NCBI GenBank assembly: GCA_021648485.1
Contig: JAKISS010000006.1
Span: forward strand, 1 to 64,000
Length of the DNA stretch: 64,000 nt
Direction of reading: 5' to 3'
Origin: Gammaproteobacteria bacterium
Lineage (GTDB): Bacteria > Pseudomonadota > Gammaproteobacteria > SZUA-152
Part shown: in pieces, positions 2,762 to 4,009 of the stretch
How the letters are laid out: the number at the start of each line of letters is the position of its first letter
How positions within the stretch are numbered: the first letter of the stretch is position 1
Position numbers and translations under genes: made by a program
The notes under the pieces: model-generated
Database searches by the model: none
What the model saw: the letters and a program-made list of their open reading frames with translations, nothing else
What the model was told of the DNA's origin: nothing

Positions 2762-4009
2762 GTCAGAATATCCTTGTTGGATGAAGTCGCTACGGGGCAA
2801 AAAACAGTGATGCTCGAAAAATCATAAGATTACAGCATCATAACATCATCACTCGAATCAAATTTCAAGTAAAATCAGCAAACCCGCCTGCAATAATTCA
2901 GGCGTATTATTCATATTTGTGCGAATAACACTGGCAATAGAAAACAAGTGTAACCTGGGTAGCCGCAAACAAAACCCAAGTGTATTTAACTGTGGCTGGC
3001 CGTAGATGTCAGCCTGGTTTTTTATCGTTGTAAAATTGTCACTATTCAGCCTGATTTTACAGGTGTTAGCTTTTTTCTTCAGAAGGAATCAGCGCAGCAC
3101 CATCAAATATTTCTGTTTGAGCGTAAATTTGCTAAGGACAGGTGAAATTCCAGTTTTTTGCGACAGCATTGATAATGCGACCTTTATTCATTATCATGCC
3201 GCTGGCATTCGCTGGCATTCGTCAGCTTCACTGGTCATTCACGGGCATCCGTATTTATTTGCGTAATACTTCCCTTGAAGTATAAGTGGTAATGGGAACC
3301 GATAGATGACTCACCCTTGATCAAGGGTTTACGTATTTGAACCTTGGACTTTATGTGTTTGCCAAGAATTGCTCCAAGATAAAGCTTTCTGAAACAGTTA
3401 CTTGAAAATTAATACATATCGGAATAGCGTTTTTTGACCGACGCGAACAATAAATGCGTGGATGAAAAGTCAGAGGCCTGATTCTGACGACAGCCTTGGC
3501 AGTGCGCTTTTGTTTTATCCTAAATTAATCAGTTAAACCGTAGCGAGAGCGACTAAGGTGCGGAAGATAAAGCGTTTTTCAGGTTATTTTGGACGAAAGC
3601 GTATCACCCATACGGTGAGTTCAGCATGTTCTGAAAAATGCTTTAGATTCTGTGCCTTAGGCGCTCGCAGTAGATTTAACTGATTAATTTAGGTTTATGT
3701 ACGGAAAGGTAGTGAATAAACACATTTCTGCCGAAGTGTGTGACTTGGAACTGCACGAGAACAAATACGGTGTGGATTGCGGCGCATAACTCATTCAATA
3801 GAGATCCCGGCTATTCCAGCGATTTATGAGGTGCCGACTGTCTTGAAAAACATGGATAACTACCTGGATGGGAGCTGGGAGAAATTTGAACAGTGAATCA
3901 GGAATACTATCGGCTCGGCCTTATTGCAGAACGACATCAAAGAGAACAAGGGAGGTTTTCCAGAGAAAAATGCTTTCATTAAATGAAAATAATAGGAGAT
4001 ATAAAATAT
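2762..4009. other. 1.25-kb intergenic region between divergent genes, with a MITE
   Basis: No supported gene is present. The ORF at 3006-3266 lacks a ribosome-binding site and recognisable content. A well-formed 175-bp MITE sits at 3519-3693. Downstream of it an open frame without a usable start codon runs to about 3896 and ends KNMDNYLDGSWEKFEQ. It could be the tail of a decayed gene, but I cannot name it. The ribosome-binding site of ino1 (GGAG near 3995) closes the region. Confidence 0.55.
3519..3693. mobile_element. MITE-like element with 19-bp perfect terminal inverted repeats
   Basis: The element begins CCTAAATTAATCAGTTAAA and ends with its exact reverse complement. Imperfect complementarity continues inward for about 40 more bases (both arms contain AAAGC[G/A]TTTTTCAG in inverted orientation). 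The whole 175 bp could fold into one long hairpin. It is flanked on both sides by TTTAT, consistent with a 5-bp target-site duplication. It has no coding capacity, so a transposase would have to act in trans. A small non-autonomous DNA transposon is the straightforward reading. Confidence 0.85.

Follow-up and report, generated by a model that had tools for sequence, protein, structure and literature searches.

What moves a 175-bp element that carries no gene, and why does most of its length fold back on itself? The question is raised by positions 3519-3693 of the window (the whole 64,000-nucleotide stretch of gammaproteobacterial DNA analysed here), where the first-pass annotation had recognised a miniature inverted-repeat element (MITE) with 19-bp perfect ends, a TTTAT target duplication and a long internal fold-back. 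On direct reading these coordinates proved exact, and the features of the locus are as follows.

3519-3693, plus strand: the MITE, 175 bp, with at least 41 complete copies in its own genome.
3519-3537, plus strand: left terminal inverted repeat, CCTAAATTAATCAGTTAAA, a perfect match to the right end.
3675-3693, minus strand: right terminal inverted repeat, located by inverted-repeat comparison.
3514-3518, no strand: left copy of the target duplication, TTTAT, read in the sequence; a single copy, TCTAT, in congener G009.
3694-3698, no strand: right copy of the target duplication, TTTAT, read in the sequence.
3547-3582, plus strand: left arm of the inner fold-back; its 36 nt are 81% complementary to the right arm at 3631-3666.
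3631-3666, plus strand: right arm of the inner fold-back, pairing with 3547-3582.
3535-3677, plus strand: conserved folded core, matching covariance model R1 with 153 bits and showing compensatory changes.
3504-3800, plus strand: host sequence around the insertion; a short frame, open in congener G009, has decayed here.

The marks of a MITE, namely small size, lack of coding capacity, terminal inverted repeats and a target duplication, are all found here. The terminal arms are 100% complementary over their 19 nt and, together with the second inverted repeat formed by the inner arms, give a fold-back that spans most of the element. Folded as single-stranded DNA, the MITE has a free energy of -47.5 kcal/mol, far below the mean of -16.1 for shuffled sequences (z = -11.7; 0 of 200 shuffles as stable). 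An 18-bp end is expected by chance 0.04 times in the window when up to three mismatches are allowed, and the exact hits are the element's own two ends. At the apex of the fold, CGTATCACCCATACGGTGA (positions 3605-3625) offers, as judged by eye in several lineages, two mutually exclusive pairings, CGTAT/ATACG or TCACC/GGTGA.

The annotation had proposed that the element transposed recently and had suggested searching the genome for its end and comparing empty sites in relatives; both searches bear it out. The draft of the window's own genome comprises 3.13 Mb in 102 contigs and is 86% complete. With up to three mismatches allowed, it contains the 18-bp end 54 times on one strand and 62 on the other, against 1 and 1 for a reversed control pattern. 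The complete copies depart from their consensus at between 1 and 15 positions (the window copy at 2), and 16 of them fall into four groups of 6, 5, 3 and 2 identical copies. Exact 5-bp duplications border 35 of the 39 other copies with both flanks read, the remaining four having one mismatch (three copies) or two (one copy), and several contigs break off within a copy. The congener G009 shows a clean unoccupied target (L251:1099-1121), GTGCGCTTTTGTTCTATGTGCGG, with one copy of the target sequence and an ungapped alignment to the joined window flanks. The inositol-phosphate synthase downstream is 96% identical to that of the window, and the empty site lies inside a 64-codon open frame with two CxxC motifs, the equivalent of which is decayed in the window. 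At a second locus the element is absent from G009, with a junction too diverged for the site to count as an empty target.

A wider set of 118 elements from many genomes defines the target. Among the 100 of these with exact duplications, T occupies position 2 in 99 and A position 4 in all 100, giving the consensus WTNAW. Lengths of 174-177 bp account for 88 of the 118, and internally shortened forms, down to 37 bp, retain their duplications; the shortest (L199:7585-7621), nearly ends alone between copies of ATTAT, may be a deletion product or else a minimal mobile unit. Solo ends are also present in the window's own genome. Four of them (L105, L106, L113 and L114), considered as possible insertion sequences (ISs), were rejected, ordinary genes without a transposase surrounding them, and L108, L109, L110 and L112 were viewed at the end itself only. 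At L105:2351, L113:2338, L108:2401 and L112:2412 a WTNAW-like sequence precedes the end and the MITE interior is missing; possibly these four are decayed copies or one-ended events. The solo end of L113 encodes the final codons and stop of a gene (PKLIS-stop). An 80-bp repeat distinct from the MITE (L391:1-81, G000:C62:14000-14080) has dozens of copies in the congeners G007 and G009; it shows no marked fold and no Rfam match.

Since the ends begin with CC and the duplication is 5 bp long and AT-rich, an IS of the IS1380 family was suspected as the partner. The annotation had suggested that an active transposase with similar ends may be present in the same genome; none was found in the 86%-complete draft, either with PF13701 or with the partner proteins described below, and at contig edges the ends run into MITEs and not into an IS. 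Its proposed search for an IS sharing the end gave a match outside that genome: in G014, of the same bacterial family, an IS end is identical to that of the window MITE at 19 of 19 bases, and a transposase begins 70 bp inside it, 46% identical to that of L326 described next, before the contig stops. Other copies of this IS in G014 are decayed remnants. In G200 an intact 1685-bp IS (L326; ends CCTAAAAAAATCAGTTAA and CCTAGATTAATCAGTTGA, flanks agreeing in 4 of 5 bases) and a MITE (L299) lie on one contig and have 19 of 19 terminal bases in common, so that here partner and MITE occupy the same genome. A further intact IS, L327 (1687 bp; ends CCTAGAAAAATCAGTTA and CCTAAAAAAATCAGTTA, end form CCTARAAAAATCAGTTA), is bordered by ATGAT, a WTNAW site. 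The duplications of the IS copies (ATGAT, TTTAA, TTTAA, ATAAA and TAGAA) are all 5 bp long and AT-rich, and TTTAA, found at the IS1380 elements L242 and L273, is the commonest MITE target.

The partner transposases, encoded in elements of about 1.69 kb in some genomes positive for the core, are DDE-type proteins of 516-520 residues. They pass PF13701 (58.8-74.1 bits, cut-off 34.7), and IS1380 is their best NCBIfam model at 121-131 bits, below the equivalog cut-off of 180; we therefore refer to them as a divergent IS1380-type subgroup. Residues D163, D165, D244, E375 and E380 are invariant and align with the acidic residues of ISEcp1, and are candidates for the catalytic residues. The proteins are 21-22% identical to the transposase of ISEcp1 and to that of the G009 IS1380 element. 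ISEcp1 is like the present elements in its CCTARA-type ends (its end, CCTAGATTCTACGT, was located in pIP843, 156 bases before its transposase frame), in its AT-rich 5-bp duplications, of which TATGA has been reported (PMC2887853), and in its DDE transposase; the window element differs in having no gene. Homology between the MITE and the partner IS stops at the ends and does not reach the interior, so the MITE did not simply arise from that IS by internal deletion.

Several other candidates for the partner were set aside. The ends of the intact IS1380 element of G009 (L117), CCTAAATCCTGCAAG, and those of the IS1380 element of G044, CCCAAATAATCC, are unlike the MITEs of the respective genomes, and end pairs 1.6-3 kb apart in a Cellvibrionaceae MAG (L161, L172, L185 and L215) enclose host genes and not an IS. 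Plasmid and phage collections contain no match to the MITE sequence; a match on a viral contig (L141) is a lone 18-mer within a long phage frame. In G102, the genome that contains L151 (Thiohalomonas sp. L138_T1), a search with the IS1380-type transposase gave 26 matches, mostly short fragments and many at contig edges, and the partner IS appears to have undergone a burst there.

From these comparisons we infer that the window element is a non-autonomous MITE with IS1380-type ends, very probably mobilised in trans by an IS1380-type transposase. In this scheme, a DDE transposase of about 520 residues would be supplied from elsewhere and would recognise matched ends of the consensus CCTARA-N5-CAGTTRA, in which the N5 block probably determines specificity. 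Insertion would take place at AT-rich palindromic WTNAW sites with duplication of 5 bp, and the copies presumably spread at a time when this lineage had a matching IS. With less assurance, the inner fold-back may have been kept because folded DNA or RNA matters to transposition or to the host. It might be objected that a transposase of a different family, for instance from an unassembled IS with look-alike ends, moves the MITE, given that the IS1380-type transposase was not found in the window's own genome, in most genomes of its genus or in most of the MITE-rich genomes examined, few full copies being known. The identity of all 19 bases with the IS1380-type end of G014, the terminal bases common to MITE and IS on the G200 contig, the same type of target and the occurrence of CCTARA-N5-CAGTT both in MITEs and in several IS1380-type elements make such a mover very improbable.

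The element extends well beyond its genus. A covariance model of the core, with the ends left out, was run against 369 gammaproteobacterial genomes, an even sample from a set with one genome per species. Named genomes elsewhere in this analysis are mostly unclassified gammaproteobacterial MAGs. Matches were obtained in 36 of the 369, of which about 20 prove genuine when judged on ends, length and duplication, the others being other hairpins or ambiguous; matches weaker than about 1e-12, mostly other hairpin repeats lacking these ends, were left out. Among the genuine genomes the core, the fold and a length of 174-178 bp are retained and the ends differ, as in G044, which belongs to another family and has MITEs with this core and different ends. 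The conserved sequences of the core are GTAGCGAGAGYG and TTCGCAGTAGA. The element thus belongs to a new family of MITEs that is class-wide and has ends of the IS1380 type, where class-wide occurrence takes vertical descent and transfer between lineages together. No Rfam family matches the MITE.

The fold-back has been maintained during this divergence. Among its 62 pairs, 94.7% of cells are paired as against 83.5% after shuffling, and 36 pairs show compensatory changes with both sides altered (0 of 500 shuffles). Shuffling leaves shared ancestry in place; a control in which the pairing was slid by 1-3 columns keeps ancestry as well, and pairing collapses to 33-45% of cells.

What maintains it is a separate matter. 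The fold-back could serve the host after insertion, as a terminator, a determinant of RNA stability or a protein binding site in DNA or RNA, as suggested for the ERIC and Correia elements, and the compensatory changes fit such a role, as does the placing of copies away from open frames (in 3 of 39 cases an open frame of 300 nt or more runs across the restored site, against 75% of random window positions). Any insertion that is tolerated would, however, be expected to avoid genes, the exact duplications and the groups of identical copies are signs of ongoing transposition, and neither an Rfam family nor a demonstrated set of long-kept orthologous copies speaks for a host function, which we regard as unlikely. 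Alternatively, the palindrome might persist without selection if hairpin-templated correction copied one arm onto the other during replication. Template switching is known to act on long palindromes, and ends and inner arms do vary in concert; the bulged, asymmetric parts (GTAGCGAG in one arm, GCAGTAG in the other) are nevertheless conserved across the class and have not been evened out, and this explanation too seems doubtful to us.

The concerted variation is most evident in the ends. Between genomes the N5 block within the consensus CCTARA-N5-CAGTT (21 elements) reads TTAAT, TAAAT, ATCCT, AACCT, AAGAG, TTCAG or AACGG, and the two ends of one element agree at 138 of 147 positions, compared with 91.9 when shuffled and a shuffled maximum of 117. 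Two end types each occur in G258, G170 and G044. These paired changes apparently suit different IS1380 transposases. It is conceivable, though we hold it to be somewhat less than probable, that the core, a folded module conserved independently, has survived throughout the Gammaproteobacteria by changes of partner, its length and fold being retained as the two ends are rewritten together for each new IS1380 transposase. Were this so, the element would be parasitic on an entire IS family over long times and not a short-lived by-product of one IS.

Bacterial MITEs are usually taken to be young, each derived by deletion from a single IS within a single lineage. In contrast, the present family combines a core of fixed length and a covarying fold with occurrence in many gammaproteobacterial families and ends resembling different IS1380-type elements, and thereby offers a case on which to test whether a change of partners lets MITEs persist. 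Its natural end variants could be used to map end recognition and the choice of WTNAW targets by transposases of the family to which ISEcp1, the disseminator of CTX-M genes, belongs. MITEs of the ERIC and Correia type resemble it in their conserved length of 100-200 bp, long fold-back and many intergenic copies; they have other ends and TA-type duplications, unlike the IS1380-type ends, 5-bp WTNAW duplication and class-wide host range of the window MITE. The eukaryotic piggyBac elements likewise have short CC ends and an AT-rich palindromic target (TTAA), which is 4 bp long, and the likeness is one of resemblance only; IS1380 transposases are placed as an outgroup to piggyBac in PMC10813416. 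TIMEs, miniature elements derived from Tn3, are comparable in being non-autonomous, moved in trans and inserted into AT-rich DNA with 5- or 6-bp duplications, and differ in their Tn3-type ends and larger size, as described in sections of PMC4133298; these same sections describe the IS1380 element ISPsp9 and no IS1380 MITE. Excerpts of the open-access literature on IS1380 and miniature inverted repeats describe no IS1380 MITE either, and the MITE end sequence does not occur in the open-access papers searched, although the family may have been described elsewhere.

Two further kinds of repeat were encountered among other gammaproteobacteria. One, at L313, L314, L317 and L318, is a distinct hairpin of about 122 bp whose arms carry CTGTCGGACTTAGG and which gives a weak match to the core model. 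Elements of 163 bp in an Ectothiorhodospiraceae MAG (L222) and in Endozoicomonas sp. (L223) have the same end type and an apparently unrelated interior, and are perhaps other MITEs that share the transposase type.
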